In this document: piece by piece, positions 2,277-45,710 of the stretch | Numbering within the stretch: the stretch's first letter is position 1 | Layout of the letters: every line of letters starts with the position of its first letter | Source: Maribacter sp. ACAM166 | GTDB lineage: Bacteria > Bacteroidota > Bacteroidia > Flavobacteriales > Flavobacteriaceae | Assembly: GCF_005771495.1 (NCBI RefSeq) | Contig: NZ_VAUW01000004.1 | Span: 62,001-126,000 of the forward strand | Reading direction: 5' to 3' | Length of the DNA stretch: 64,000 nucleotides | Program-made: the position numbers and the translations under genes | Notes under the pieces: model-generated | Database searches by the model: none | What the model was told of the DNA's origin: nothing | What the model saw: the letters and a program-made list of their open reading frames with translations, nothing else

Positions 2277-3167
2277 ATGAAAGAATTACAAGGAGTAGGA
2301 GTTGCATTAATTACACCGTTTAAGGAAGATGGTTCAGTAGATGTTCTTGCTCTTAAAAAAGTAGTAGCATATAATATCGAAGGCAATATTGATTATTTAG
2401 TAGTGCTGGGCACTACAGCAGAGTCAGTAACCCTTAGCAAGACAGAAAAACAATTGGTTATGGATACCGTAGTAGAGGCCAATACGGGCATTTTACCTTT
2501 GGTTATCGGCGTAGGTGGTAACAATACCATGGGCTTGGTTGAGGAATTGAAAAGCTTAGACTTATCTGCCTATTGCGCAATCCTATCTGTTTCTCCGTAT
2601 TATAATAGGCCTACGCAAGAAGGTATTTATGAGCATTTTAAGGCACTTTCAAAAGCATCACCCTTACCAATAATACTATATAACGTACCGGGTCGTACAG
2701 GAAGTAATATGTTGCCCGATACTGTAGTACGCTTGGCTAAAAATTTTACAAATATCGTCGCTGTAAAGGAAGCTTGTGGCAACATGACGCAGGTGTTGGA
2801 ACTAATTGCCAAAAGACCTGAAGGATTCTTTGTGCTGTCTGGTGACGATATCACCGCATTACCGACTATTGTTGCAGGTGGTGATGGTGTGATTTCAGTA
2901 ATCGGACAAGGATTGCCTACAGAATTCTCAAAAATGGTACATGAAGGTTTGAATGGAAATGTTGATGAAGCCTATATCCATCATAACAGAATGCAAGATG
3001 GAATGCATCTTATTTTTGAAGAAGGAAACCCAGCGGGTATTAAAATTATTTTTGAATACTTGGACATATCCAAGCCATATGTACGCTTGCCCTTAATGCG
3101 TGCCAGTGATGCATTAAAACACAGAATAATTTCCTTTATGGAATCGGTGGTTCGTATACCTGCATAG
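2277..3167 (+). CDS. dapA: 4-hydroxy-tetrahydrodipicolinate synthase
   Basis: Condenses pyruvate with aspartate-4-semialdehyde, the first committed step of the diaminopimelate/lysine pathway, in the cytoplasm. The 296-residue TIM barrel has the usual length. Visible active-site features are GTTAES (T46, T47), the tyrosine in ILYNVPGRT (Y135) and the Schiff-base lysine in VAVKEA (K164); GGDGVIS follows further on. It is translationally close to the DUF6913 gene (2-base gap). Nothing unusual is seen in the coding sequence. Confidence 0.97.
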   Translation: MKELQGVGVALITPFKEDGSVDVLALKKVVAYNIEGNIDYLVVLGTTAESVTLSKTEKQLVMDTVVEANTGILPLVIGVGGNNTMGLVEELKSLDLSAYCAILSVSPYYNRPTQEGIYEHFKALSKASPLPIILYNVPGRTGSNMLPDTVVRLAKNFTNIVAVKEACGNMTQVLELIAKRPEGFFVLSGDDITALPTIVAGGDGVISVIGQGLPTEFSKMVHEGLNGNVDEAYIHHNRMQDGMHLIFEEGNPAGIKIIFEYLDISKPYVRLPLMRASDALKHRIISFMESVVRIPA

Positions 3168-3261
3168 TTTTCGTTAAATCTATTATAAAAGGGACTTTTT
3201 TGCCGCATAAAGCCTGTATTTTTATTGGTTTAAAATGTTTTTTAAATCCATTGATAATCAC

Positions 3262-3269
3262 TAATTTTG
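3262..3269 (+). promoter_or_regulatory. -7 promoter element for bamD operon
   Basis: TAATTTTG matches the Bacteroidota -7 consensus TAnnTTTG. No TTG is found at the expected -33 distance (the best there is TTT). Transcription starting a few bases downstream would place the ATG at 3274 at the RNA 5' end, which favours the in-frame ATG at 3286 as the bamD start. Confidence 0.5.
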
Positions 3270-3285
3270 CAGAATGTTTTTTAAA

Positions 3286-4107
3286 ATGAGGAGAGTTTTC
3301 CCAATACTATTAATTGCCATTGCGTTACAATCGTGTAGCGAGTACCAAAAAGTGCTCAAGAACGATGATGTAAAAGCGAAGTATGAGTTGGCAGAAAAAT
3401 TTTATAAAGAAGGTGATTACAAAAGGGCCAACCGATTGTATGAGCAGATTGCACCAAAATATGTGGGTAAACCGCAAGGTGAGCGGGTGATGTTCTTTCT
3501 TTCTAATAGTTATTTTAAACGCGGAGATTATAATATGGCGGGCTATCAGTTTGAGCGTTTTATCAAATCCTATCCTAAAAGTGATAAGGTCGTTGAGTCA
3601 TCATTTTTAGGTGCGAAAAGCTATTATAAATTATCTCCAGAATATTCTTTAGATCAGACAGATACTGATAAAGCATTGTTGAAGCTTCAAAATTTTATTA
3701 ATGCATATTCTGAATCTGAATATTTTGCAGAAGCTAATAAAATGGCAAAGGAGCTTACCACCAAAAAAGAACGTAAGTCCTATGAAATAGTCCAACAGTA
3801 TAATAAAATAGGGGAATTTAATTATGACATGCTGAAATCTGCGGTTACGGCAAGTGATAATTTTGTTTCGGATAATCCAGGTTCTATCTACAGGGAAGAT
3901 GCATTGTTTATAAAAATGGATGCATTGACTCATATGGCTATGAATAGTTTTGAGAGTTTAAAAGAAGAGCGGTTGAAAGATGCCAAAGCAGCGTATACCG
4001 TTCTTAAGAAAAGATATCCGGAATCTAAATTTGATATAAAAGCTACCAATCTTTTGGAAAAAATAGATAGGGAATTACAACGGTTGCAAGCTGTTGAATC
4101 AAAATAA
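3286..4107 (+). CDS. bamD: Outer membrane protein assembly factor BamD
   Basis: Periplasmic-facing lipoprotein of the BAM complex, which folds beta-barrel proteins into the outer membrane. From the ATG at 3286 it is 273 residues with a short signal peptide ending in LQSC (Cys17). TPR-like helical repeats follow, including FYKEGDYKRANRLYEQI and YFKRGDYNMAGYQFERF, as in the BamD/YfiO family. An alternative ATG at 3274 adds four residues but would sit next to the predicted transcription start. It is the first gene of a probable operon with rpoZ, coaBC, the PorD-like gene and perhaps recN. Confidence 0.92.
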   Translation: MRRVFPILLIAIALQSCSEYQKVLKNDDVKAKYELAEKFYKEGDYKRANRLYEQIAPKYVGKPQGERVMFFLSNSYFKRGDYNMAGYQFERFIKSYPKSDKVVESSFLGAKSYYKLSPEYSLDQTDTDKALLKLQNFINAYSESEYFAEANKMAKELTTKKERKSYEIVQQYNKIGEFNYDMLKSAVTASDNFVSDNPGSIYREDALFIKMDALTHMAMNSFESLKEERLKDAKAAYTVLKKRYPESKFDIKATNLLEKIDRELQRLQAVESK

Positions 4108-4119
4108 TTAACTTATATT

Positions 4120-4452
4120 ATGAATATGAACGATTTAAAAAACTCTAAGGCAGCAGTATCTACGGTAACTATTAACCGTAACGAGTTCGACAAGCCTACC
4201 GAGAATATTTATGAAGCTATTTCAATTACTGCAAAACGTGCTGTTCAGATTAATTCTGAAATAAAAAAAGAGCTCTTAGAGAAGTTGGAAGAATTTGCTA
4301 CCTATAGTGATAGCCTTGAAGAGGTTTTCGAAAACAAAGAGCAAATTGAAGTTTCAAAGTTCTATGAAAAATTACCTAAGCCTCATGCTATGGCAGTAGA
4401 GGAGTGGTTGATGGACAAAATATACCACAGAAATACCGAAAAAGACGCATAA
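4120..4452 (+). CDS. rpoZ: DNA-directed RNA polymerase subunit omega
   Basis: 110-residue small RNA polymerase subunit of the Rpb6/omega family, aiding assembly and stability of the core enzyme. The segment NIYEAISITAKRAVQI (about residues 29-44) matches the conserved omega region; the C-terminal part is a charged helix typical of the Bacteroidota form. It lies 12 bases after bamD and 5 bases before the chosen coaBC start, in the conserved flavobacterial order bamD-rpoZ-coaBC. Confidence 0.88.
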   Translation: MNMNDLKNSKAAVSTVTINRNEFDKPTENIYEAISITAKRAVQINSEIKKELLEKLEEFATYSDSLEEVFENKEQIEVSKFYEKLPKPHAMAVEEWLMDKIYHRNTEKDA

Positions 4453-4457
4453 GGAAT

Positions 4458-5663
4458 ATGTTGAACGGCAAAAACGTCCTTTTAGGGGTAACCGGAGGCA
4501 TTGCTGCTTATAAAACAACATTCTTAGTTCGTTTATTCATAAAAGCTGGCGCTAACGTTAAGGTTATACTTACCGATAGTGCCAGTTCTTTTGTTTCTCC
4601 ACTTACCTTGGCGACATTGTCCAAGAACCCTGTAATATCCAATTTTGTAAAATCTGAGGAGAATACCATAGCGTGGAATAATCATGTGGAATTTGGTCTG
4701 TGGGCAGATCTTATACTAATTGCCCCAGCAACAGCAAATACAATGTCTAAAATGGCATCAGGTACATGTGATAATCTTTTATTGGCAACGTACTTATCTG
4801 CCAAATGTCCTGTTTTTGTAGCACCTGCAATGGATTTGGATATGTATAAGCATCCGAGCACTAAAAGTTCTTTGGATGCATTAGCTTCTTTTGGAAATAA
4901 TATTATACCTGCAACAAGTGGGGAACTTGCTAGCGGACTTCACGGTGAAGGAAGAATGGCGGAACCTGAGGATATAATTGAGTTTATAAAAAAACAACTG
5001 GTATCAGGTTTGTCCTTGTCAGGCAAAAAGGTGTTAATTACTGCAGGGCCTACGTATGAAGCTATAGATCCAGTACGGTTTATAGGAAATCATTCTTCAG
5101 GATTAATGGGTTTTGAGCTCGCTAGAACAGCAGCCAATTTAGGTGCAGAAGTGTATTTGGTTACTGGTCCTACACATTTGATAATTGCACATAATAATGT
5201 ACATGTAATCAATGTTGTTTCTGCTGATGATATGTATCATAGTACCCAAATGTACTTTGAGAATGCTGATATTGTTATTTGTGCCGCAGCAGTGGCCGAT
5301 TATAGGCCAAAATCTGTTGCCGAACAGAAAATTAAAAAATCTGATGAGAACCTCACGTTAGAACTTGTTAAGAACAGAGATATTCTAATGACTTTAGGGG
5401 AACATAAGAAAAATCAATATCTAGTTGGTTTTGCCTTGGAGACCGAAAATGAGGTTCAAAATGCCATAGGTAAGCTAAAGCGTAAAAATTTAGATGCCAT
5501 AGTGCTAAATTCTATGCAAGACAAAGGTGCTGGATTTGGTGGTACTACCAATAAAATTTCTTTTATAGATACCAATTCTACCATAACTGCGTTTGAACTT
5601 AAGACCAAGGCAGAAGTTGCCGTGGACATCTTTAATGAAATTATCAAAAGACGGTATGCCTAA
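4458..5663 (+). CDS. coaBC: Bifunctional phosphopantothenoylcysteine decarboxylase / phosphopantothenate-cysteine ligase
   Basis: Makes 4'-phosphopantetheine from phosphopantothenate and cysteine in coenzyme A synthesis. The start at 4458 is chosen because it is preceded by AAGGAA and opens with MLNGKNVLLGVTGGIAAYK, the family N-terminus; the longer frame overlaps rpoZ. The CoaC flavoprotein domain covers about residues 1-180 (GGIAAYK, APATANT, PAMDLDMY), and the CoaB ligase domain follows, with ITAGPTYEAIDPVRFIGN and AAVADYRP. Length 401 residues is normal. It overlaps the next gene by 8 bases. coaE, the last CoA step, is also in this window at 11265. Confidence 0.95.
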   Translation: MLNGKNVLLGVTGGIAAYKTTFLVRLFIKAGANVKVILTDSASSFVSPLTLATLSKNPVISNFVKSEENTIAWNNHVEFGLWADLILIAPATANTMSKMASGTCDNLLLATYLSAKCPVFVAPAMDLDMYKHPSTKSSLDALASFGNNIIPATSGELASGLHGEGRMAEPEDIIEFIKKQLVSGLSLSGKKVLITAGPTYEAIDPVRFIGNHSSGLMGFELARTAANLGAEVYLVTGPTHLIIAHNNVHVINVVSADDMYHSTQMYFENADIVICAAAVADYRPKSVAEQKIKKSDENLTLELVKNRDILMTLGEHKKNQYLVGFALETENEVQNAIGKLKRKNLDAIVLNSMQDKGAGFGGTTNKISFIDTNSTITAFELKTKAEVAVDIFNEIIKRRYA

Positions 5664-6549
5664 GTTTGTTTTTTTACTATTTTTCTGCTTCATAAGTTTT
5701 ACGTCCATGGCGCAGGAATTGACCTGTACCGTTACTGTAAATTCCGACCAGTTATCGCAAGGAGACCTTCAGGTATTTAAAACGTTAGAACGTTCGTTAA
5801 CTGATTTTATAAATAAGTCTAAATGGACCAACAGGGTCTATAAGGAGAATGAACGCATAAATGCACAAATGTTCATTACCATAACAGAATATGAATCTAA
5901 TCGGTTTAAGGGTACTATTCAGATACAGTCCTCAAGACCTGTTTATAATACCTCGTATTCTACACCAGTATTTAATTATAAAGACAATCAACTCAATTTT
6001 CAGTACATCGAATTTCAGCCGTTAATTTTTAATGATAACCAATTCGAATCTAATTTAGTAAGTGTACTTTCATACTATGCCTATATTATTTTAGGCCTTG
6101 ATGCCGATACGTTCTCTTTAGAAGGCGGCACTGAATTTTACCGAAAGGCTCAAAATATCGTAACCTTAGCACAGGGTAGTAATTCTTCTGGATGGAGCCA
6201 ATCTGCAGATTCCAACCGTAGTCGATTCGAATTAGTAGACAACCTGTTATCAAATACATACAGGGAGTATCGTATAGCCATGTACAATTACCATAGAAAG
6301 GGTTTAGATATTATGCCAGATAATAATAGTACTGGCAAACAGGTCATTGCAGGAACCATGAATCTTTTTCAGACCATGATTAACAGGAGGCCGAATGCCT
6401 TTTTGATTTCTACGTTCTTTGATGCAAAGTCAGAAGAAATTCTGAATATATTTTCAGACGGTCCAAAAGTTGATATCGTAAAATTGAAAGAAACCCTTAA
6501 TAAAATTGCACCATTGTACGCTAGTACATGGAACGATATTAAATATTGA
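5656..6549 (+). CDS. DUF4835 family protein (Type IX secretion PorD-like)
   Basis: 297-residue exported protein. The chosen ATG at 5656 overlaps the end of coaBC and gives a clean signal peptide (about residues 1-19, ending SMAQ). An in-frame ATG at 5635 would add seven residues. The mature protein has the DUF4835 pattern, a beta-rich start followed by a region with EGGTEFYRKAQNI and MINRRPNAFL. DUF4835 proteins are named PorD-like in Type IX secretion work; I rely on recall for that link. Its position between coaBC and recN is the usual one in Flavobacteriaceae. A structural or assembly role in the cell envelope is inferred. Confidence 0.8.
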   Translation: MPKFVFLLFFCFISFTSMAQELTCTVTVNSDQLSQGDLQVFKTLERSLTDFINKSKWTNRVYKENERINAQMFITITEYESNRFKGTIQIQSSRPVYNTSYSTPVFNYKDNQLNFQYIEFQPLIFNDNQFESNLVSVLSYYAYIILGLDADTFSLEGGTEFYRKAQNIVTLAQGSNSSGWSQSADSNRSRFELVDNLLSNTYREYRIAMYNYHRKGLDIMPDNNSTGKQVIAGTMNLFQTMINRRPNAFLISTFFDAKSEEILNIFSDGPKVDIVKLKETLNKIAPLYASTWNDIKY

Positions 6550-6570
6550 ACCTTTTTTCAACACGTAATA

Positions 6571-6591
6571 TAGATTACCTTTGTTAATCTA
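6571..6591 (+). promoter_or_regulatory. recN -7 element overlapped by a 7-bp inverted repeat
   Basis: TACCTTTG at 6576-6583 fits the Bacteroidota -7 consensus. It is framed by TAGATTA (6571-6577) and TAATCTA (6585-6591), perfect 7-bp arms around a 7-base spacer. A protein bound here would block transcription of recN, which starts 13 bases downstream. Operator function is inference. Confidence 0.45.
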
Positions 6592-6603
6592 AAATTCTGA
6601 AAC

Positions 6604-8271
6604 GTGCTTTCAACCCTCTCCATTACAAATTATGCATTAATCGATAGTCTAGTAGTAGGCTTCGATAAAGGTTTTACAGTGATTACAGGTGAAACTGGTG
6701 CAGGTAAATCTATTTTGCTTGGCGGTCTATCATTAGTGTTGGGTAAACGGGCAGATTTATCCTCATTGAGAGTAAAGAATGAAAAATGCATTATTGAGGG
6801 GCTATTTAAAATTGACACCTACGGACTTCAGCAGTTTTTTGAAGAAAATGACCTAGATTATGATATTAACACGGTCATTAGACGAGAGATATTGCCCAGT
6901 GGTAAATCTAGAGCCTTTATCAATGATACCCCCGTTACCTTAGATGTACTGTCTAGATTGGGAGAAAATCTTATCGATATTCATTCGCAGCATCAGACGA
7001 TACAGCTTACTGAAAATGATTTTCAATTAAAATTGGTAGATGCATTAGCTGAAAATCAGAAGAGATTAGCGGTTTATGTGAAAGGATTAAAAACCTATCG
7101 CAAGGCACAAAAAGAATTGGAAGGTCTAATTGAAGTGCAAACTACCGCAAATAAGGAACAAGATTATAATTCTTTTCTGTTGACAGAACTTGAGAAAGCA
7201 CCTTTAAAAGAGGGGATTGTTGAAGCGTTGGAAGAAGAGTATGAGCAGCTCAATAATGTAGAACTGATAATGGAACAGTTATCAAAAGGAGACCAATTGT
7301 TTAATGATGAGCAAATTGGTGTTTTGCCTTTGGTAACCGAAATGCGACAATCCTTATCGAAATTAGTCGAATTTGGATCTAATTATAAAGAGTTATACCA
7401 ACGGGTTCAATCAGTTCTAATAGAATTAGACGATGTCAATTCAGAATTACAACGTTTACAAGAAGGAGTAGAAGTAAACCCTGATGCCTTAAAAGAGGTA
7501 AACGGAAAGTTACAGTTGTTATACAACTTGTTGAAAAAGCATAACGTAAATGAAGTCTCAGAATTGATTTCTATCAAGAATGAACTTTCGAATAAATTAT
7601 TTGAAACAGCACATTTAGACGAGAAAATAGCTTTGAAAACGAGAGAACTGCAGGATATGGAATCTATTTTAGAGGAACAATCTGTAGTGTTACGAGAAAA
7701 GCGAAATACGGTCATACCAGAGTTACAATCGAAACTAAAATCAGATTTGACCCAATTGGGAATGCCTAATGCCTCTTTTGAAATCAGCTTAAGCCCAACT
7801 GATACCTTCACCATAACTGGAATGGACGAACTTTTATTTTTATTTACTGCGAATAGAGGAGGTAGTTATGGTGAATTAAAAAAGGTGGCTTCCGGTGGAG
7901 AATTATCTAGAATCATGCTGGTTATAAAGGCGATTCTTGCCAAATATGAAAAATTACCTACCATTATGTTCGATGAAATCGATACTGGAGTGTCCGGTGA
8001 AATTTCAAATAGAATGGCAGATATTATGAAAGACATGAGCGCTGACTTGCAAGTCTTTTCAATAACTCATTTACCACAGGTCGCATCCAAAGGAAACCAT
8101 CACTTTAAAGTATTCAAAACAGAAGGAGCTGAGCGTACGATGACTAATATGAAAAAACTAACCAATGATGAGCGTGTAGTTGAACTGGCGCATATGTTGG
8201 ATGGTAAGGACTTGTCCGATTCCGCATTGGCTCATGCAAAACAACTTTTGAATCCCTCATTAAAAGTTTGA
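6604..8271 (+). CDS. recN: DNA repair protein RecN
   Basis: SMC-like ATPase acting in double-strand break repair. Length 555 residues is normal. The Walker A motif GETGAGKS is near residue 30, the central part is a long charged coiled coil (about 160-380), and the C-terminus carries the ABC signature VASGGELSR followed by IMFDEIDTGVSG (Walker B). The start codon is GTG at 6604; the resulting MLSTLSITNYALIDS matches the family N-terminus, so no upstream start is needed. It has its own -7 element in the 54-base gap after the PorD-like gene, so it can be transcribed separately. Confidence 0.96.
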   Translation: MLSTLSITNYALIDSLVVGFDKGFTVITGETGAGKSILLGGLSLVLGKRADLSSLRVKNEKCIIEGLFKIDTYGLQQFFEENDLDYDINTVIRREILPSGKSRAFINDTPVTLDVLSRLGENLIDIHSQHQTIQLTENDFQLKLVDALAENQKRLAVYVKGLKTYRKAQKELEGLIEVQTTANKEQDYNSFLLTELEKAPLKEGIVEALEEEYEQLNNVELIMEQLSKGDQLFNDEQIGVLPLVTEMRQSLSKLVEFGSNYKELYQRVQSVLIELDDVNSELQRLQEGVEVNPDALKEVNGKLQLLYNLLKKHNVNEVSELISIKNELSNKLFETAHLDEKIALKTRELQDMESILEEQSVVLREKRNTVIPELQSKLKSDLTQLGMPNASFEISLSPTDTFTITGMDELLFLFTANRGGSYGELKKVASGGELSRIMLVIKAILAKYEKLPTIMFDEIDTGVSGEISNRMADIMKDMSADLQVFSITHLPQVASKGNHHFKVFKTEGAERTMTNMKKLTNDERVVELAHMLDGKDLSDSALAHAKQLLNPSLKV

Positions 8272-8395
8272 TTGTTGGAGGCTTATTTCGAAATTGTAAA
8301 ATTATTTTCTGAATGCATACTTCGTAAACTTGCCCTGAGGTTTTTGAATTAGGGTTTTTACTATGCGCTACAATTCGGTTTTAACATATTTTAGA

Positions 8396-8403
8396 TATCT
8401 TTG
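8396..8403 (+). promoter_or_regulatory. -7 promoter element for fabI
   Basis: TATCTTTG matches TAnnTTTG and lies 30 bases upstream of the fabI ATG. The -33 region has TTC rather than TTG at the expected spacing, so the match is partial. Confidence 0.45.
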
Positions 8404-8433
8404 AATTATAACTAAACAATAGAATCAACTATC

Positions 8434-9240
8434 ATGGGATATAACTTATTAAAAGGAAAAAGGGGAATTATTTTTGGAGCACTAGACGAAAACTCTATTG
8501 CATGGAAAACAGCACAAACTGTACATGATGAAGGTGGTACTTTTGTTTTGTCGAACGCCCCTATTGCCATGAGAATGGGTCAAATTGATCAGTTAGCTGA
8601 GAAAACTGGTTCTCAAATAATTCCTGCAGATGCAACAAGTGTTGAAGATTTGGATAATTTAGTTGAGAAAGCAGTTGAAATTTTAGGAGGTAAAATAGAT
8701 TTTGTATTGCATTCTATAGGGATGTCAGTTAATGTTCGTAAAGGACGTGCTTACACTGATGAAAAATACGATTTCACGGCAAAGGGATGGGATGTTTCTG
8801 CACTTTCATTTCATAAAGTTATGCAATCATTATATAAGGCTGATGCCATGAACGAGTGGGGTAGTATTGTTGCTTTAACCTATATGGCTGCACAACGTAC
8901 CTTCCCTGATTATAATGACATGGCTGATAACAAGGCATACCTAGAATCTGTTGCCCGTAGCTTTGGATATTTCTTCGGAAAAGAGAAAAAAGTTAGAGTA
9001 AATACCATTTCACAATCTCCAACAGCGACTACTGCCGGGCAAGGTGTAAAAGGTTTTGATGGTTTTATTAGTTATGCAGAAAAAATGTCTCCATTAGGTA
9101 ATGCTACAGCTCAAGATTGTGCTGAATATACGGTGACATTGTTCTCAGACTATACAAAAAAGGTAACCATGCAGAATTTGTTTCATGATGGTGGTTTCTC
9201 CACTACAGGTGTCAGCCAAGAAGTCATAGAGAAATTTTAA
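8434..9240 (+). CDS. fabI: Enoyl-[acyl-carrier-protein] reductase (NADH)
   Basis: Reduces trans-2-enoyl-ACP in the last step of each fatty acid elongation cycle. 268 residues, SDR fold. The nucleotide-binding start is FGALDENSIAW (residues 14-24), and the FabI-type catalytic pair Tyr-x6-Lys is Y160 and K167 in PDYNDMADNK. SQSPTATTAGQGVKGF is the substrate-loop region. This class is the usual target of triclosan-type inhibitors. It is transcribed from its own promoter; the glycosyltransferase starts 55 bases downstream. Confidence 0.96.
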   Translation: MGYNLLKGKRGIIFGALDENSIAWKTAQTVHDEGGTFVLSNAPIAMRMGQIDQLAEKTGSQIIPADATSVEDLDNLVEKAVEILGGKIDFVLHSIGMSVNVRKGRAYTDEKYDFTAKGWDVSALSFHKVMQSLYKADAMNEWGSIVALTYMAAQRTFPDYNDMADNKAYLESVARSFGYFFGKEKKVRVNTISQSPTATTAGQGVKGFDGFISYAEKMSPLGNATAQDCAEYTVTLFSDYTKKVTMQNLFHDGGFSTTGVSQEVIEKF

Positions 9241-9295
9241 TTCGGTTTTTAATCTTTCATTTTTTTTGGAACCTATTCATTAGAGGAAAGTAATA

Positions 9296-10303
9296 ATGAC
9301 ATTATCGTTTTCTTTTATAGTTCCTGTGTACAATAGACCTAACGAAATTAGGGAGTTGTTAGACAGTCTATCCTTACAAACCTTTAATCAGGTTTTTGAG
9401 GTTGTTGTCGTTGAAGATGGTTCGACGATTTCGTCGGAAGATATCATAAGGGACTATGTAGATACGCTATCTATTTCATATTATAAGAAGCCTAATTCTG
9501 GGCCTGGAGATTCCCGTAATTACGGTATGAAGAGGGCTAAGGGTAATTATTTTATTGTTCTGGATTCTGACTGTATTATTCCGCCAGAATATCTGAAAAT
9601 TGTATATAAAAGTTTAAAAGAAGATTTTGTGCACTGTTATGGAGGTCCGGATGCAGCGCACAATTCTTTTTCTGTTGTTCAAAAGGCGATTAATTATGCA
9701 ATGACCTCTTTTTTAACCACGGGCGGAATTCGTGGTGGAAAAAAAGCGGTGGGTAAATTTCAGCCCAGAAGTTTTAATATGGGGATTTCTAAGCAAGCCT
9801 TTGAAAATGTCAGAGGATACGGAAATATCCATCCAGGGGAAGATCCAGACTTAACCATACGTATTTGGAACAAAGGATATAAGACCAAGTTAATCTCTGA
9901 GGCCTTTGTGTTTCATAAAAGGCGCATAGATTGGAATAAATTTTATATTCAAGTGAATAAGTTTGGGATGGTAAGGCCTATTTTAAACCAATGGCATCCT
10001 GAAACAAGCAAGCTAACATACTGGTTCCCCACACTTTTTTGTTTAGGATTGTTGGTGTCAGTGTTAATGGGAGTTATTGGTGTTTTGATACCATTGCTTT
10101 GTTATATACTTTATTTTTTTATTTTATTTTTGGATGCCCTTGGTAAAACTAAGAATTTGAGAGTCGCCATTTTGGCCTTATTCGCAACAGGAGTACAATT
10201 CATAGGCTACGGTTATGGTTTTTTAAAATCCACGATTTGTATTAAATTGAGTAAAAAGAAACCTGAAGCGCTATTTCCTAAATTATTTTTTAAAACAAAT
10301 TAA
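9296..10303 (+). CDS. Family 2 glycosyltransferase with C-terminal membrane segments
   Basis: 335-residue inverting glycosyltransferase with a GT-A fold. The N-terminus FIVPVYNRPNE is the nucleotide-sugar binding start, LDSDCIIP (about residue 82) is the metal-binding DxD-like site, and GEDPDLTIR carries the conserved acidic catalytic region. Two to three hydrophobic segments from about residue 235 to 310 anchor it in the inner membrane. Donor and acceptor cannot be told from the sequence. Its stop overlaps the start of the YbbR-like gene (TAATG), and coaE follows with another overlap. Confidence 0.88.
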   Translation: MTLSFSFIVPVYNRPNEIRELLDSLSLQTFNQVFEVVVVEDGSTISSEDIIRDYVDTLSISYYKKPNSGPGDSRNYGMKRAKGNYFIVLDSDCIIPPEYLKIVYKSLKEDFVHCYGGPDAAHNSFSVVQKAINYAMTSFLTTGGIRGGKKAVGKFQPRSFNMGISKQAFENVRGYGNIHPGEDPDLTIRIWNKGYKTKLISEAFVFHKRRIDWNKFYIQVNKFGMVRPILNQWHPETSKLTYWFPTLFCLGLLVSVLMGVIGVLIPLLCYILYFFILFLDALGKTKNLRVAILALFATGVQFIGYGYGFLKSTICIKLSKKKPEALFPKLFFKTN

Positions 10304-11268
10304 TGAAGCCGCTCATAGAATGGATACAAACGGGATTAAAAAAAAGGAAGGTAAAAGTCTTCCTTATATTCTTGTTGTGCGCGTCGCTTGCATGGTTTAT
10401 TAATAAATTATCTCAAAGCTATACAAGTAACACTACATTTCATGTTACCTATATAAATATACCACCCAAATATTTATTGGCAAATACCCCCAAGAAGGAA
10501 TTACAGGTTAGGTTAACGGCCGCAGGGTTTCAGTTTTTAGGATATCATCTAAAGCCTAAACAGATGACGCTAGACGTCAGTAAGATGATGCACAAAGATT
10601 CAAATTACTATTTAACCTCAGACCAGATAAGAATACAACTAGAAGCCCAAATAAACAATTACAGTACGTTAACAGATTTTGATAGTGACATTATTTATTT
10701 CGATTTTACATCGTTAAAATCAAAAAAAGTACCTGTGAAGGCGGTGGTTGATTTTACCTATGCTTCTAATCATATTTTGGAAGGAAAGATAGGCATAGAG
10801 CCAGATTCTATTCAATTAACTGGACCTAAAAGTCAAATTGATACGATTCATGTAATTGAAACTGAACTATTTAAACAAGGTGATTTAAATGATTCGTTTT
10901 CTAACCAGGTATCATTAAAGTTACCACTAGAATTGAATGGAACTAAATTCTCTGATTATTCTGTAACTATTAGTGGCACTGTGGTAAAGTTTTCAGAACA
11001 GGTAATCGAAGTGCCTATAACCGTTATTAACTTACCCAAAGATGTGAAGGTTCGTACGTTTCCAGAAATCGTACAAGTACGCTGTCAGGGCACTTTAAGT
11101 AACTTAAAAGAGCTAAAAGTTGGAGATTTTACTGTTGTAGCCGACTATTCAAAGGTTTCTCAAGAAACAGATAATAGGTTATCTATAACCTTAGAACGTT
11201 ATCCAAGAACGCTGAATAATGCGTTAATTACTACAAATGAAATCGAATTTATACTAAGGCGCGAATGA
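10303..11268 (+). CDS. YbbR-like domain protein (CdaR-like)
   Basis: 321-residue protein with one N-terminal membrane segment (about residues 19-35) and a large extracytoplasmic part built of YbbR-like beta repeats. YbbR/CdaR proteins regulate the diadenylate cyclase CdaA in Firmicutes; whether that holds here is unknown and no cyclase gene is in the window. The conserved neighbour in Flavobacteriaceae is coaE, which overlaps its end by 4 bases (ATGA). Confidence 0.75.
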   Translation: MKPLIEWIQTGLKKRKVKVFLIFLLCASLAWFINKLSQSYTSNTTFHVTYINIPPKYLLANTPKKELQVRLTAAGFQFLGYHLKPKQMTLDVSKMMHKDSNYYLTSDQIRIQLEAQINNYSTLTDFDSDIIYFDFTSLKSKKVPVKAVVDFTYASNHILEGKIGIEPDSIQLTGPKSQIDTIHVIETELFKQGDLNDSFSNQVSLKLPLELNGTKFSDYSVTISGTVVKFSEQVIEVPITVINLPKDVKVRTFPEIVQVRCQGTLSNLKELKVGDFTVVADYSKVSQETDNRLSITLERYPRTLNNALITTNEIEFILRRE

Positions 11269-30763: not shown

Positions 30764-31399
30764 TTAGTCGGTAAGAAATTCTAAATTACCACTTACGTAG
30801 GTATTTCTATTTACATCATAAATTGAAGCTTCGTCATCTTTGTCTAGGTATATGCCCCAATATTCAGAATAAGACTTTGGGGCTATGTAAATTTGGTCGT
30901 ACTCTATGTCTAAGTTATCTTCAAATATAGGTACGAATATCTCATAAGGTTTTTGTGTAAGCCCCCGAGTTAAAAACACAAAGTTACATGCTATTTGTTT
31001 TAAGATGTTATTGAATTGGGTTGGGATACTTTTATTGTAAATGCGTTTAATTACGATGCTGGTATCATGTAATGAGATGGTAAGTTCTTCAATATCAATC
31101 GAATATTTGTTTTTTAAATTAATAATTTCTAGACAATGTTGTAGTGGTGACTCATTATAGCCATTGTTACCCCATCTACCAGTATAAAAATGGTTGAATA
31201 ATTCCATCAAATCGGAATTACAATGAATTTCTAAAACTAAATTGAAGGAATCTAAGGTATAGCCCTTACTTTTTAGTGTTAAAGTAGAAAAATAATGGTA
31301 TTCAAGAGCGTTGAGAAATTCGTCAATACCAATTATCTCTTTAGTATATTCCAAGTTTAGTGACGAATTTTTGATGAAATTATCAAAATCGAAAGACAT
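30764..31399 (-). CDS. Hypothetical protein
   Basis: 211 residues, not recognised. No signal peptide, membrane segment or known motif is visible; it is acidic, with mixed helix and strand and several aromatic residues near LFNHFYTGRWGNNGYNESP. It is 158 bases downstream of the LuxR-type regulator on the same strand, so it could be part of that transcript or independent. It converges with glyA. Confidence 0.65.
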   Translation of the reverse strand: MSFDFDNFIKNSSLNLEYTKEIIGIDEFLNALEYHYFSTLTLKSKGYTLDSFNLVLEIHCNSDLMELFNHFYTGRWGNNGYNESPLQHCLEIINLKNKYSIDIEELTISLHDTSIVIKRIYNKSIPTQFNNILKQIACNFVFLTRGLTQKPYEIFVPIFEDNLDIEYDQIYIAPKSYSEYWGIYLDKDDEASIYDVNRNTYVSGNLEFLTD

Positions 31400-31557: not shown

Positions 31558-32226
31558 TTAAAGAAATCCTCGGTTTTTGGCCTCATTTATTAGGGCAAGG
31601 TCATTCCCGTTCTTAATTTCAAATAAAGCTTTTAATTGTCTTTTTCTTCCTTCAACAGTAGTGTTTGCTGATCCAATTAATGGCGCAATATCTCTAGTGT
31701 GAATACCTTGAGAAAGATGATATAGAATTTTTTGGTCCTGTTCATCAATAACTATATCGCTAGACATTCTACGTCGAATCGCAGCTAAGGCAATAGCGGT
31801 ATAATAGGCTGAATTATTCATTATGGTTTCTACCATAGCCTTGAGAGACATTTCATCTATCTCTGATTTTACCATATAACCATCAGGATTCACGGTCTTG
31901 AAAATATTATTAATTCTATAATTATCACTATATGATGACATGAAGACTATTTTAGAATTAGGAACTTCTTGTCGAGCAATAATACCTAAATCGATACCTG
32001 TTCTCTGGTCTTTGGATTCGGGAGAGAATAATTGGATATCCAATAAAATGATATCGTAAGGAATGGAGCGCTTGGAAAATTCTATCTTATTTTTTCCTGA
32101 ATCAAAACTTTTTGCTATTTCAACTTTTACATTAAAATCTGTAAAATCAGAATCCTCAAGAATATACTTATATCCTAAAGTGGTCATTTCATGATCATCT
32201 ACCGCTAAGATTCGTACTGTGTCCAT
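31558..32226 (-). CDS. LuxR/NarL-type response regulator
   Basis: 222 residues. The receiver domain has AVDDHE and phosphoacceptor D63 in ILLDIQLF, so it should accept phosphate. The C-terminal helix-turn-helix (about 158-215) reads DQKILYHLSQGIHTRDIAP and TTVEGRKRQLKALF, a divergent LuxR/GerE pattern (normally TVexHrxxI). It lies 28 bases downstream of the TPR sensor kinase gene on the same strand, so the two are a natural pair. Targets are unknown. Confidence 0.9.
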   Translation of the reverse strand: MDTVRILAVDDHEMTTLGYKYILEDSDFTDFNVKVEIAKSFDSGKNKIEFSKRSIPYDIILLDIQLFSPESKDQRTGIDLGIIARQEVPNSKIVFMSSYSDNYRINNIFKTVNPDGYMVKSEIDEMSLKAMVETIMNNSAYYTAIALAAIRRRMSSDIVIDEQDQKILYHLSQGIHTRDIAPLIGSANTTVEGRKRQLKALFEIKNGNDLALINEAKNRGFL

Positions 32227-32253
32227 TTAAATTTTTAAAATCATTGTAATTTA

Positions 32254-34350
32254 CTAAACGTTTTTATAGTAGGAATTATTATCCGTAGAATTATTGGATT
32301 TTTTTATAATTGGAATTTTTAGTGTAATTGTAGTCCCTTGTCCTTCAATAGAATCAATATTGCACGTGCCTTTTAGTTTGTTTACCCTTGATGTAATATT
32401 TCTGATACCAATACCCTTTTTTCCTTTATTATCATTAAAACCAATGCCATTATCGTTCATAATAACGTCAAACTGTTCATCTGTTCTATGAAAAGTGATA
32501 TCAAAAATAGTACAGTTGGCATGTTTAATGGCATTTTGAAAAGATTCTTGTATAATTCTATACGTATTTATCTTTATATCGCCCGCTAAAGAATCCCAAC
32601 TTTCGTCCTCATTAAAATTGAAAATAGTATGGATATTGGCATTTTTATTTGCACTTAATAAAAGGGATTCAATGGAATCGGTAAAATTATTGATTTTTTG
32701 ATATGCTGAATGACTCAACTCATGTGAAATGGAACGTATTTCTTTTTCAATTTCTTGAAGAGAACCGAGCGCTTTTGCTTTCTCTTGTATAGCTTCTTCG
32801 GTAGCACGTTTATTTAACCCAGTCAAAACCATACGTGCTCCCAATATCTTGCCCAAAATTCCATCATGAAGTTCTTCTGATATTCGCTTTTGCTCCATTC
32901 GTTTTACTTCATCAACCTTTTGTTTTTGCATCAACATTAAATTGAATATTTCTTGATTATTGGCCTGTTGTTGTTGGTCAAAACGAAGTTTTTGATTTTT
33001 AGCACGTTGATTGATTATGGTGTAGATAAATAGACCCAACAAGAATAAACCTGTGGCAATACCGGTCCATATAGTTTTCTGTTTAGAAAGCGATTCTTTT
33101 TCGCTTTCTAACTCCACATTTTCGGCAATAAATTCGTCCGTTTCAAAACGGATACGGGCAAATTTGTTTTGCTGTTTACGTTCTTCTTTTTGAAGACTGT
33201 CATCAAGTTTGATGTATTTTTTAAAGTAATTAGAGGCATCATTCTTTTTTAATTCAGATAAAAACCCCCAAACCTCTAATAGTCTTTCATTATTCTCGCT
33301 TTCAATGGATAAATCTTCTGCTTTTTGAATAAAAGAAATTGCCATCAATGTATCATTGGCATATGCTTTGTACTTTGCATAATTAAAATAAGATGATGCT
33401 AAACTGGCAATTTGGTTTTCTTTATCCTTTATTTCAATTGCTTTAATGAAAAGATTATTAACATCTAATGTGTCTTTTAGGTATAATTTACTAGAGGCTA
33501 AATTGCTTAGCGCTAAAGCATAAAGCACTGGGTTTTTTTCAATTAAATTATCGATATTTAAGACTTTATCGTAATTATCTATGGCTTTTTCATACAAATT
33601 ATTTTGTTGGTAAACAACGCCTATATTATTAACAATTTTGGCCTCTTTAATGTAATTGTAGGGTTCTTCTTGTTTTAAATAATAGAGGGCTTCGTTATAA
33701 TAGGATAATGATTTTTCAACTTCTCCCAATATACCTGAAGCAATGCCTAAATTATTATAACTTTCTGATAGGTAACGATTATCATTTAATAGCTTAAAAT
33801 TTTCAATAGCCCTAGTCGTAGTGGCTTGACTACCAACATTGTCTTTAATACTTATTTGAATTCTCGCCATTTGCAAAAACATTCTACCTGAAAGTTGTTT
33901 TTCCTCAATAGTTTCAAATACTTTTTGTGCTTCTGAATACGAATAATAGACACTATCTTTTACTGAATATTTTTCAAAAAATAAGGCTAAATCCCAGTAA
34001 GCAAACCCTATAGGTAATGAATCGTTACGTTTTTGATTTAAAGAAATAGCTTGTTTATTAATTTCACGAAATAATGTACTGTCTGTGGTGAAATTTAGAT
34101 TTTCAGAAAGGACAGAAAAATAGTTAGCTTGTAGGGAGTCGGAGGATGTGTTTAATGCAAATTGATGAGCCTTCTTTAAAAGCGTTAAATTTTGTTGCTC
34201 AGTAGATTCCGGATTTTTACTTTCTTCTATCCAGAAACTAATACTATCGGTTTCTATTGCTTTTAGAGGTGCTTCTTGGGTAAGTTCGGTCTCTGAACAG
34301 CTACTGAGTAATTTTAATAGAATTAGTAAAACTAAATATCTTTTAATCAA
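32254..34350 (-). CDS. TPR-containing sensor histidine kinase (HisKA_3)
   Basis: 698 residues. A lipoprotein-like signal (LLSSC, Cys18) precedes a long TPR array (about 60-390; for example YNNLGIASGILGEVEKSLSYY and NNIGVVYQQNNLYEKAIDNY). A coiled coil leads to one membrane segment (428-447). The cytoplasmic HisKA_3 domain has the NarL-class box KRISEELHDGILG with H495, then an ATPase domain with IKINTYRIIQESFQNAIKH and DNGIGF. The external TPRs are expected to bind a peptide or protein signal. The cognate regulator is the next gene. It follows the small exported peptide gene, separated by a terminator. Confidence 0.9.
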   Translation of the reverse strand: MIKRYLVLLILLKLLSSCSETELTQEAPLKAIETDSISFWIEESKNPESTEQQNLTLLKKAHQFALNTSSDSLQANYFSVLSENLNFTTDSTLFREINKQAISLNQKRNDSLPIGFAYWDLALFFEKYSVKDSVYYSYSEAQKVFETIEEKQLSGRMFLQMARIQISIKDNVGSQATTTRAIENFKLLNDNRYLSESYNNLGIASGILGEVEKSLSYYNEALYYLKQEEPYNYIKEAKIVNNIGVVYQQNNLYEKAIDNYDKVLNIDNLIEKNPVLYALALSNLASSKLYLKDTLDVNNLFIKAIEIKDKENQIASLASSYFNYAKYKAYANDTLMAISFIQKAEDLSIESENNERLLEVWGFLSELKKNDASNYFKKYIKLDDSLQKEERKQQNKFARIRFETDEFIAENVELESEKESLSKQKTIWTGIATGLFLLGLFIYTIINQRAKNQKLRFDQQQQANNQEIFNLMLMQKQKVDEVKRMEQKRISEELHDGILGKILGARMVLTGLNKRATEEAIQEKAKALGSLQEIEKEIRSISHELSHSAYQKINNFTDSIESLLLSANKNANIHTIFNFNEDESWDSLAGDIKINTYRIIQESFQNAIKHANCTIFDITFHRTDEQFDVIMNDNGIGFNDNKGKKGIGIRNITSRVNKLKGTCNIDSIEGQGTTITLKIPIIKKSNNSTDNNSYYKNV

Positions 34351-34384
34351 ATTTATTTTTTAGAACTTCATAAATCCAAGATAT

Positions 34385-34420
34385 AAAAAAGCCCTTAACA
34401 TTTATGTTAAAGGCTTTTTT
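34385..34420 (-). terminator. Intrinsic terminator after the small peptide gene
   Basis: Stem AAAAAAGCC / GGCTTTTTT with a continued inner stem TTAACAT / ATGTTAA across single mismatches. It lies between the 57-residue peptide gene (stop at 34440) and the sensor kinase gene, suggesting the peptide can be made as its own short, abundant transcript. Confidence 0.8.
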
Positions 34421-34439
34421 TATACCGTATTATTTTGTT

Positions 34440-34613
34440 CTAGCTAAGTTGTTTTGGGTTTCTTGGGTCTTTATTTGTAGCACAATCATCACAAGCTAAT
34501 GCTTTAGATATATCATTCATGAAATTGAATTCATTGGCAGTGTTTTCTAAAACGTACGTTGCCATTCCTAATGCCATTACTGTTACTGCTAAAATACTTG
34601 TTACTTTTTTCAT
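34440..34613 (-). CDS. Small exported peptide with CDDC motif
   Basis: 57-residue gene found by reading the minus strand; no family is recognised. It starts with ATG AAA AAA, has a hydrophobic signal-like segment (about residues 5-20, TSILAVTVMALGMATYV), an acidic linker and a C-terminal part with ALACDDCATNKDPRNP (C41, C44). The size, export signal and paired cysteines resemble a signalling or modified peptide precursor. It is flanked by a LytTR-type regulator upstream and a peptide-competent TPR sensor kinase downstream, and has its own terminator. Function as a signal is inference; it could also be a small envelope protein. Confidence 0.7.
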   Translation of the reverse strand: MKKVTSILAVTVMALGMATYVLENTANEFNFMNDISKALACDDCATNKDPRNPKQLS

Positions 34614-34709
34614 TTTAAGTGTGTTTTAGGGGTTTTTGGTTTATTCTATTACCAAATTATCACCCTTTTGCGAGTAGTTGATGTTAATTTGTTAATCTTA
34701 AGTGAATGA

Positions 34710-34740
34710 CCTAGTTCTGCTAGTAAACAGCCTAGTTTTG
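34710..34740 (-). promoter_or_regulatory. Paired direct repeats, candidate LytTR operator
   Basis: CCTAGTTCTG (34710-34719) and CCTAGTTTTG (34731-34740) match at 9 of 10 positions and start 21 bp apart, two helical turns. LytTR proteins typically bind two 9-bp direct repeats with a GTT core and a 12-13 bp gap. The pair sits about 100 bases upstream of the peptide start and just downstream of the LytTR gene itself. A weak -7-like element lies at 34653-34660 (minus). Binding is inference. Confidence 0.4.
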
Positions 34741-34817
34741 AGAGAATTCTCTAATTTAGGGTAGAAAGGGTATTTTTTGAGAGAATTCTCTAATTTAGGG
34801 TAGAAAGGGTATTTTTT
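34740..34817. repeat. Perfect 39-bp tandem duplication
   Basis: Copies 34740-34778 and 34779-34817 are identical, and GAGAG of a third copy follows. Each contains the 12-bp palindrome AGAGAATTCTCT (34741-34752 and 34780-34791). The second copy includes the last codons and the stop of the LytTR gene; the first is intergenic. Losing or gaining a copy would leave the LytTR C-terminus unchanged. Confidence 0.95.
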
Positions 34818-35521
34818 GAGAGTATGGTCTTAAGGTTATCCATATTCTCTCGGTAAGTTTTTGAAAAAGGTAATTGTTCGTTTACCCTTTTTAAAGCACA
34901 AACTGATTTTCCGAAATTAATTCTAGATACGTAATCTGTGTTAACGATATAACTTTGATGTATACGCATGAAATTTTCAGGTAGTGTATTTTCAAACGTT
35001 TTAAGGGTCTTGTATGCATTGGTAATCGTACCATCTTTCATAATAAACTCGGTAGTATTATTATCTGCTTTCAAGTAAAGAATATCATTTGTGTTCAGGT
35101 ATTGAAAATCGTTGTACGACTTTATACATAATGTAGCCGGTGCTTTTTCTTTTGGCATTCTTTTTTTAAGCTTTAACAATGACTTACGAATGTCGAATTC
35201 ATTATAGGGTTGTAACCAATAATCGGAAAAGCCGTTTTTGATTGCGTCGTAGGCATAATCTTTTGTAGACGCCAAACCAATTAATATAGGAAGTTGGGTA
35301 ACATATTGATGAATCTCCGTCACCATTAGAAAAATTGAAGAATAATCAGTATTGAGATTAATGAAAACGATATCTGGAGAATATTTTATAATATCATTTA
35401 ACCCATCAGAAGGGTTTTTCGTAGTATTTATACATTCAAAGTCGCCATATTCATCCAAAAATGCATGCAATTGCAAATTTGAAACAGCATCTGAATCTAT
35501 TATGGTGTATGAGTAATCCAA
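34790..35521 (-). CDS. LytTR-family regulator with degenerate receiver domain
   Basis: 243 residues. The C-terminal LytTR DNA-binding domain (about 132-235) is clear: LYLKADNNTTEFIMKDG, TLPENFMRIHQSYIVNTDYV. The N-terminal receiver fold is present but lacks key residues: the phosphoacceptor position in DIVFINLN is N55, the switch lysine is Q104 (YWLQPY), and the Ser/Thr position near 83-84 is not conserved; only the acidic pair (D9, D11) remains. It should therefore work without phosphorylation. No LytS-type kinase is adjacent. Its 3' end lies inside a 39-bp duplication. Confidence 0.88.
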   Translation of the reverse strand: MDYSYTIIDSDAVSNLQLHAFLDEYGDFECINTTKNPSDGLNDIIKYSPDIVFINLNTDYSSIFLMVTEIHQYVTQLPILIGLASTKDYAYDAIKNGFSDYWLQPYNEFDIRKSLLKLKKRMPKEKAPATLCIKSYNDFQYLNTNDILYLKADNNTTEFIMKDGTITNAYKTLKTFENTLPENFMRIHQSYIVNTDYVSRINFGKSVCALKRVNEQLPFSKTYRENMDNLKTILSKNTLSTLN

Positions 35522-45134: not shown

Positions 45135-45710
45135 ATGAAAAAGTGGACATACCTAGTGTCCTTGTGCACCTTATTGATAGGCTACCAGACTAAGGCACAA
45201 GATAAGGTTGCTGAATTACCAGTGGAACAAATTCTGCCGTATTTCACAAAATCTAAGAAGTCTATTATAGAGCGTACGGCTTCTTTTGAAAGTTACTCGA
45301 CCTTATTAAGCGTATTAAAAGCAACCAATTTAGACCAAGTGTTAGGATATAATGGAGAGTTTACCATTTTCGCTCCATCAAATCTAGCGTTCGAGAAATT
45401 ATCAAAAATCACAACAGATAAACTTTTAGACCCAAAGAATAAAAAGGTTCTAAAGACCATTCTGTCTCATCATATTATAGCCGGTAAATTATCGGCATCT
45501 TCTATTTTAAGAGCCATGTGTCGTGGCAATGGTTCGGCAAATTTCACGACTATACAAGGTGAAAAGATTATAGCTACCATGAAAGGCATAGAAATAATAC
45601 TGACCGACAAATCTGGAAATCAAGCTATTATTGTCAGAGCAGATTCAAATCAATCTAACGGTGTCATCCACGAAATAGACACTGTATTTCTACCAATAAA
45701 TATATTCTAA
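45135..45710 (+). CDS. Fasciclin (FAS1) domain protein
   Basis: 191 residues with a signal peptide (about 1-21, ending TKAQ) and one FAS1 domain: FESYSTLLSVLKATNLDQVL, GEFTIFAPSNLAFEKL, KTILSHHIIAGKL and the final HEIDTVFLP. FAS1 proteins act in cell adhesion or as extracellular proteins. Its stop abuts that of pheT on the other strand with no gap. Confidence 0.9.
   Translation: MKKWTYLVSLCTLLIGYQTKAQDKVAELPVEQILPYFTKSKKSIIERTASFESYSTLLSVLKATNLDQVLGYNGEFTIFAPSNLAFEKLSKITTDKLLDPKNKKVLKTILSHHIIAGKLSASSILRAMCRGNGSANFTTIQGEKIIATMKGIEIILTDKSGNQAIIVRADSNQSNGVIHEIDTVFLPINIF

Follow-up and report, generated by a model that had tools for sequence, protein, structure and literature searches.

A stretch of 64,000 nt from Maribacter sp. 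ACAM166 (contig NZ_VAUW01000004.1, positions 62,001 to 126,000), referred to here as the window, carries four adjacent minus-strand genes that predict, in the direction of transcription, a LytTR regulator, a small exported peptide, a tetratricopeptide repeat (TPR) sensor kinase and a LuxR-type response regulator (Table 1). The genome is 4.9 Mb and its close named relatives are Maribacter. An earlier, sequence-only reading had proposed that these genes form a peptide-signalling cassette in which the peptide, or a processed form of it, is made under LytTR control and sensed by the kinase. All four genes were found in the order and on the strand it described, with the domains it had named.

Table 1. 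Features of the cassette in the window.
Feature	Position	Strand	Remarks
LytTR regulator with degenerate (pseudo-)receiver	34790..35521	-	TTG start; Pfam LytTR E 8e-18; weak receiver match
Predicted exported peptide precursor, 57 aa	34440..34613	-	leader ~1-24, middle 25-39, core 40-57 (ACDDCATNKDPRNPKQLS)
TPR sensor kinase	32254..34350	-	TTG start; signal/lipobox-like N-terminus; Pfam TPR_12, HATPase_c and near-cut-off HisKA_3
Regions of the kinase			TPR domain ~35-366, single transmembrane segment near 430-450, then HisKA_3 and HATPase_c (residues)
LuxR/NarL-type response regulator	31558..32226	-	receiver residues intact
Predicted intrinsic terminator 3′ of peptide gene	34384..34421	-	folding: hairpin of -15 kcal/mol, then T-run
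Direct-repeat sites in 21-bp register, candidate LytTR operator	34695..34747	-	conserved in relatives
Individual operator-like sites	34747-34737, 34726-34716, 34705-34695	-	third site weaker
39-bp tandem duplication across LytTR end and site 1	34736..34822	-	extra site 1 at 34786-34776

The LytTR domain scores 64.9 bits against a curated Pfam cut-off of 22.6. Matches of the kinase to TPR_12 (6e-14) and HATPase_c (3e-9) are accompanied by one to HisKA_3 that falls just short (7.5e-5; 23.6 bits, cut-off 24). The last gene product matches Response_reg below the cut-off (5e-6; 27 bits against 30.2), and its LuxR/NarL type was assigned through NCBIfam relatives only. The peptide, MKKVTSILAVTVMALGMATYVLENTANEFNFMNDISKALACDDCATNKDPRNPKQLS, has no Pfam or NCBIfam match at E ≤ 0.1.

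Linkage of the peptide gene with the kinase gene

Relatives of the LytTR regulator (E ≤ 1e-40) were found in 111 of 397 genomes of the family and in 75 of 237 genera. A scan of named genomes, from which the best 80 of 350 relatives were kept, recovered Maribacter, Zobellia, Pseudozobellia, Pricia, Euzebyella, Kriegella, Ulvibacterium, Eudoraea and Muriicola, among others. The peptide was matched at E ≤ 1.1e-8 in 32 of 35 genomes of the same genus and at E ≤ 1 in 40 of 60 relatives; the other three same-genus genomes also had no LytTR match at E ≤ 1e-20. Of 181 stretches collected, one was set aside because a contig end left its LytTR end unusable, and the other 180 included 36 duplicates, leaving 144 non-redundant LytTR loci.

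The peptide gene is present in 138 of the 139 LytTR loci with a kinase gene downstream, and in all 124 loci with a kinase and a LytTR at least 50% identical, starting 127-158 nt past the LytTR stop in 118 of these. A blind filter called a peptide in 138/139 gaps between LytTR and kinase, 7/139 reverse strands and 7/1390 shuffles; two loci were set by hand to have no peptide, L178, where it looks broken, and L175, where the open reading frame (ORF) lies inside the regulator gene. In a second set of 40 regions, a peptide accompanies the kinase in each of the 36 that encode one; the filter called 27 of these peptides and 9 were found by reading (L287-L294 and L319, missed by the lipobox filter). 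Five LytTR loci have no kinase, two of them cut by contig ends (L215 with a peptide, L237 without), and at the three complete ones the peptide is missing too and LytTR lies directly 5′ of the regulator gene.

Loci anchored on the kinase gave the complementary result. In a sample of the phylum, the 19 fetched loci scoring above 560 bits, which overlap in part with the genomes of the LytTR-anchored sets, were all from Flavobacteriaceae, and all 19 have a peptide gene 5′ of the kinase gene. Six of them carry peptide, kinase and regulator genes with no LytTR within up to 6 kb upstream. At 40 further kinase loci, a peptide-like ORF lies no more than 650 nt 5′ of the kinase gene in 39 (controls: 5/40 reverse strands, 33/400 shuffles), and 36 of the 37 that have no LytTR upstream have a peptide. 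Thirty-nine of these loci were taken in list order from G236, omitting those already examined and G215, G073 and G127 (near contig starts), and the fortieth, from G117, was chosen for being an array and is the only one of the 40 with no peptide; L394 and L417 had less than 600 nt of upstream sequence. Presence of the regulator was checked in the LytTR-anchored sets and the six triads free of LytTR. The kinase itself (E ≤ 1e-140) was detected in 120 of 199 sampled Flavobacteriaceae genomes and 119 of 198 sampled genera.

The peptide thus belongs with the kinase, because it stays where LytTR is absent and is missing at the three complete LytTR loci that have no kinase. Judged by this comparison, the unit is peptide, kinase and regulator, and LytTR is a common but dispensable addition. 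The suggestion that the kinase senses the peptide gains comparative support from the same loci, and LytTR control of the peptide is plausible only where a LytTR is present.

Co-occurrence and selection also bear on whether the small ORF makes a peptide at all. The sequence-only reading had named absence, lack of conservation or neutral evolution of the peptide gene as grounds for giving it up, and none of these was observed; beside the 124/124 co-occurrence, the peptide has a ratio of non-synonymous to synonymous substitution rates (dN/dS) of 0.32 (110 pairs from 22 Maribacter-type sequences, with synonymous sites near saturation). The ORF might instead have been conserved by accident, or act in cis as a leader for the kinase gene, and yield no functional peptide. 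This would suit its position just 5′ of a kinase gene that starts with TTG in the window, but purifying selection, a conserved leader, tandem repeats at the protein level and the terminator that separates the ORF from the kinase gene make this highly improbable.

A different possibility reverses the roles: kinase and regulator would control the peptide as their output, and its hypervariable core would act on other organisms as part of an antimicrobial or surface effector. LytTR regulators are known to control bacteriocins (PMC6193735), and hypervariable, tandemly repeated cores (see below) would also fit toxins or surface-displayed peptides. However, the peptide goes with the kinase and not with LytTR, none of the cassette genes was recognised as having a role in immunity, transport or processing, no bacteriocin family was matched at its curated cut-off, and lipidation fits a peptide that stays attached to the cell. 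We consider this explanation unlikely.

Outside the family, no convincing peptide was seen at 11 fetched loci of weaker TPR kinases (out of many more matches), the 28-43-aa ORFs named by the filter at L345, L350 and L352 being judged by eye not to be peptides. Three LytTR matches in other families were set aside as cassettes, with no kinase or regulator match and no peptide identified; the ORF named by the filter at L295 encodes a 141-aa protein.

In 20 larger regions, the genes for GlyA, the 211-aa protein, the regulator, the kinase, the peptide and LytTR form one syntenic block; two contigs end before all genes past LytTR, and the peptide in G036 was identified by reading the gap. The 211-aa uncharacterised protein (window 30764-31399) lies 3′ of the regulator gene in 20/20 regions and has no Pfam or NCBIfam family at cut-off.

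Precursor peptides, LytTR sites and kinase domains

The precursors share a leader with a MKKVxSIxAVxVMxxGxFSC-like consensus across many genera. A lipobox-like Cys is present in 90/139 peptides, while plain leaders occur in the window's genus and others; the window peptide lacks this Cys, and 70 of 116 loci placed on a tree have it. The C-terminal core is hypervariable, with 135 distinct last-12-residue ends among 139 peptides. A [TC]D[GDN][DC]...R-like core is found in the broad group that includes the window, GGGRKQD or GGNKKVD ends occur in a second large genus (g146), and other ends, including GGGVDERD, are found elsewhere. The CDDC motif with which the sequence-only reading had labelled the peptide is one variant within the first group and does not hold as a family signature: a CxxC core is missing from 69/116 tree loci, often with a TDGD-like sequence in its place.

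Tandem copies of the core, up to about 14, occur in 23/139 precursors at a threshold of at least 85% identity and in 25/139 at 70%, where 20 rounds of shuffling gave 4 detections in total. The precursor of Zobellia barbeyronii carries ten 14-residue core units and that of Z. uliginosa carries one; L153 has about fourteen units of 34 residues, and further multi-core precursors outside the 139 were found at L288, L291, L306, L340 and L425. Units within one precursor are 75-100% identical, and their best matches elsewhere are 35-93% identical. A single FastTree tree of the 116 loci shows 9 changes in the CxxC core, 13 in the multi-core state, a label assigned partly by hand, and 7 in the lipobox. 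It offers too few independent pairs for setting the CxxC core against the lipobox or the multi-core state.

Three loci have unusual arrangements. In L166 (G452) a 17-residue unit recurs about 14 times and is apparently read in changing frames along the gene, L337 (G489) has three successive small secreted-peptide genes less than 660 nt 5′ of a single kinase gene, and L127 (G090 contig C1, 3236945-3238785) has a tandem pair of LytTR paralogues followed by a precursor with six CDDC units.

Regions following the Cys appeared acidic by eye in many peptides. These acidic regions recall the lipoprotein export signal of Bacteroidetes (PMC5080379), so that those peptides that are lipidated may be carried to the cell surface. 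The leader and lipobox raise the alternative that the peptide is a sentinel for self-monitoring, the kinase reading its export, lipidation or surface transport and so sensing the envelope or lipoprotein traffic; the two would be cognate with no signal passing between cells. The leader is the best-conserved part of the peptide, 90 of the 139 have the Cys and no exporter gene was recognised. Hypervariable cores and homogenised tandem units are left unexplained by a sentinel, and the module persists without a lipobox in the window's genus and others, as the seven lipobox changes on the tree also indicate; we regard it as improbable.

Neither the window peptide nor any of 12 members scanned matched a small-peptide or lipoprotein family at curated cut-off. 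The best NCBIfam match is to the PG1828 family lipoprotein model (NCBIfam NF050142, 59 positions), of similar short length, with sub-threshold matches in 7 of the 12 that resemble it in leader and middle; the best scores 27.8 bits against a cut-off of 50 and spans residues 1-37 of 48 (leader and middle; e.g. L249). The family differs in that the window peptide has no match to it and the core is uncovered in the matches examined. Sub-threshold lipoprotein and BSAP5b matches were rejected as covering only the leader, or leader and middle, with PG1828 retained as a lead. ORFs of about 193 aa located about 10.5 kb away, which match peptide residues 1-37, were also discarded; the one in the window (45135-45710) resembles an ordinary exported protein.

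The pseudo-receiver reported for LytTR is borne out across the family. The phosphosite position is occupied by Asn in 126 of 144 sequences, His in 8, Asp in 5, Ser in 3 and Arg in 2, and the phosphoacceptor Asp expected of a phosphorylation-dependent LytTR regulator is therefore found in 5/144; the protein is probably non-phosphorylatable in most species examined. The LuxR-type regulator has kept Asp63 and Lys120 in 134/134.

Conserved sites lie in the gap between the LytTR and peptide genes. Among 125 loci, 110 motif pairs have a period of exactly 21, and periods 21 and 22 together account for 114 pairs against a shuffle mean of 1.1 and maximum of 5, the motif having been written from the sequences on which it was scored and the shuffles ignoring relatedness. 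A TAxxTT[TA][AG] box, which we take to resemble the Bacteroidetes -7 box, lies 3′ of the repeats in 93/125 loci (shuffle mean 27); the window has no strict match to it. Across the whole window, the strict pair of sites has a single occurrence, and a looser form is matched at three positions (34747, 34726, 42208). Candidate sites at the peptide promoter thus comprise at least two direct repeats with an 11-13-nt spacer, and their spacing agrees with published LytTR sites, given as repeats of 9-11 nt with an 11-13-nt spacer in the available text of PMC4847170, making them a putative operator. In the window, the 39-bp duplication accounts for a distance from LytTR stop to peptide of 176 nt, against a median of 140. 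No period-39 repeat is found at this place in the other Maribacter loci of the 139 set, and the only other repeat of at least 20 bases in this gap among the 139 peptide loci is at L267 (period 21).

The terminator attributed to the peptide gene is also supported. A 13-bp hairpin is predicted by folding before a T-run in the window, and hairpins of -8 or lower before a T-run follow the peptide gene in 116/125 loci, against 5/125 after one shuffle; a consensus terminator scan did not list the one in the window.

An AlphaFold2 model of the kinase has a mean predicted local distance difference test score of 84.8, with block means of 87-98 at residues 41-390, and an overall predicted template modelling score of 0.58. 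In the PDB, the model is matched best by complexes containing the TPR domain of LGN, and lower down by Rap-CSF (4gyo, rank 40) and phi3T Rap with its pheromone (8rsv, rank 46), and the C-terminus matches VraS- and DesK-type cores. The modelled TPR domain resembles peptide-binding TPRs. The catalytic His is present in 134/139 kinases, with gaps in 5. A hydrophobic N-terminus with a lipobox-like Cys was recognised by regular expression in 104/139, and a hydrophobic, transmembrane-like segment lies C-terminal to the TPR domain.

A candidate signalling triad of the Flavobacteriaceae

The reading we favour, with a probability of roughly 0.58, is that the core binds, as a cognate ligand, to the TPR domain of the kinase encoded next to it, in a peptide-kinase-regulator signalling triad. 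It builds on features read directly from the sequences: the order of the genes and their conservation, a leader of the export type, the repeats, sites resembling an operator, the terminator, the intact His and Asp residues and the pseudo-receiver. The small gene would produce a Sec-exported and often lipidated precursor, which would expose a hypervariable C-terminal core of about 12-19 residues, at times in many tandem copies, outside the inner membrane. Binding of the core, possibly after release or processing, by the TPR domain would alter the activity of the DesK-type kinase and hence phosphorylation of the LuxR-type regulator. LytTR, where present, would bind the period-21 repeats and set peptide expression, probably while itself unphosphorylated. 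The signal could pass between cells or report on the cell's own envelope.

Divergence of the parts is consistent with pairing of peptide and kinase. Mean distances, which are comparable only within each kind, are 0.86 for the core and 0.51 for the leader (alignment-score based), and, as uncorrected differences, 0.61 for the TPR domain, 0.45 for the kinase catalytic part, 0.39 for the regulator, and 0.37 and 0.32 for the LytTR receiver and DNA-binding parts. In 28 pairs with LytTR at least 95% identical, core and TPR domain have fallen to 72% and 74% identity, with leader and catalytic part at 93% and 92%. Within three clades of close relatives, core distance rises with TPR distance once the other proteins are taken into account (r = 0.23, p = 0.026, 18 taxa; r = 0.40, p = 0.001, 21 taxa; r = 0.60, p = 0.008, 8 taxa). 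Of the other parts, the catalytic one reaches significance in two clades and has a negative value in that of 8 taxa; the transmembrane/linker segment reaches it in one and the regulator in none.

Several observations weigh against the ligand reading. The within-clade tests were run only after a global partial Mantel test over all loci had given no significant correlation between core and TPR (r = 0.051, p = 0.073), with values of 0.203 for core and catalytic part and 0.183 for core and regulator (both p = 0.001). Core distance follows the catalytic part more strongly than the TPR domain in two of the three clades, so that the signal is kinase-wide rather than groove-specific, and LytTR parts are significant in the clade of 8 only. 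The core has no sign of positive selection, its dN/dS being 0.41 (leader 0.30, middle 0.17). L178 holds only a broken-looking peptide gene, and at L426 (G117, 2290-10799) five or more paralogous TPR kinase genes lie in tandem with no peptide gene. Relatedness among the genomes inflates the conservation counts, and neither the cassette nor the two flanking genes scanned yielded a recognisable dedicated protease, exporter or modification enzyme; general proteases could provide a processing route. Taken as a whole, covariation gives moderate backing to a peptide-kinase pairing and does not point to a specific groove. A further kinase of this type in the G117 genome does have a peptide (L399).

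As in peptide-pheromone two-component systems, a gene for a peptide whose leader predicts export is linked to a kinase gene. The cassette resembles agr and streptococcal Sil and Blp in that the peptide gene adjoins kinase and regulator genes, LytTR is often involved and peptide variants diverge, but no AgrB-like enzyme or ABC exporter was recognised in the Flavobacteriaceae cassette, which instead combines a Sec/lipoprotein-type leader, a TPR sensor, a LytTR pseudo-receiver and a LuxR-type phospho-regulator. A TPR fold is shared with RRNPP proteins such as those of Rap-Phr systems, where it is the receptor of short secreted peptides, and Rap-peptide structures are among the matches to the kinase model. 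RRNPP/Rap receptors are cytosolic, whereas the TPR domain here is on the predicted exported part of the kinase.

FimS of the Porphyromonas gingivalis FimS-FimR system is likewise a TPR sensor kinase, periplasmic, with a signal reported as unknown in the available text of PMC11053733. The NCBIfam FimS model touches the window kinase (residues 213-456) far below its cut-off (31.8 against 600 bits), and that text describes no peptide partner for FimS. LytTR regulatory systems share a LytTR regulator and direct repeats with a period of about 21 bp (available text of PMC6193735), but consist of LytTR and an inhibitory membrane protein controlling their own operon, whereas the cassette sites precede the peptide gene. 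Among the matches listed in searches of open-licence full texts, no account of the cassette or of a Flavobacteriaceae peptide signal was found.

More tentatively, and at somewhat less than even odds, the triads may amount to a family-wide form of peptide communication, in which species-specific cores, set free from secreted or surface lipopeptide precursors, are recognised by a histidine kinase through its exported TPR receptor. If so, each species would have its own signalling type, and the multi-copy precursors of some species would be comparable to that of yeast alpha-factor. Nearly every kinase locus tested has a gene for a candidate ligand next to it, and the natural core variants would provide ready-made tests of specificity.

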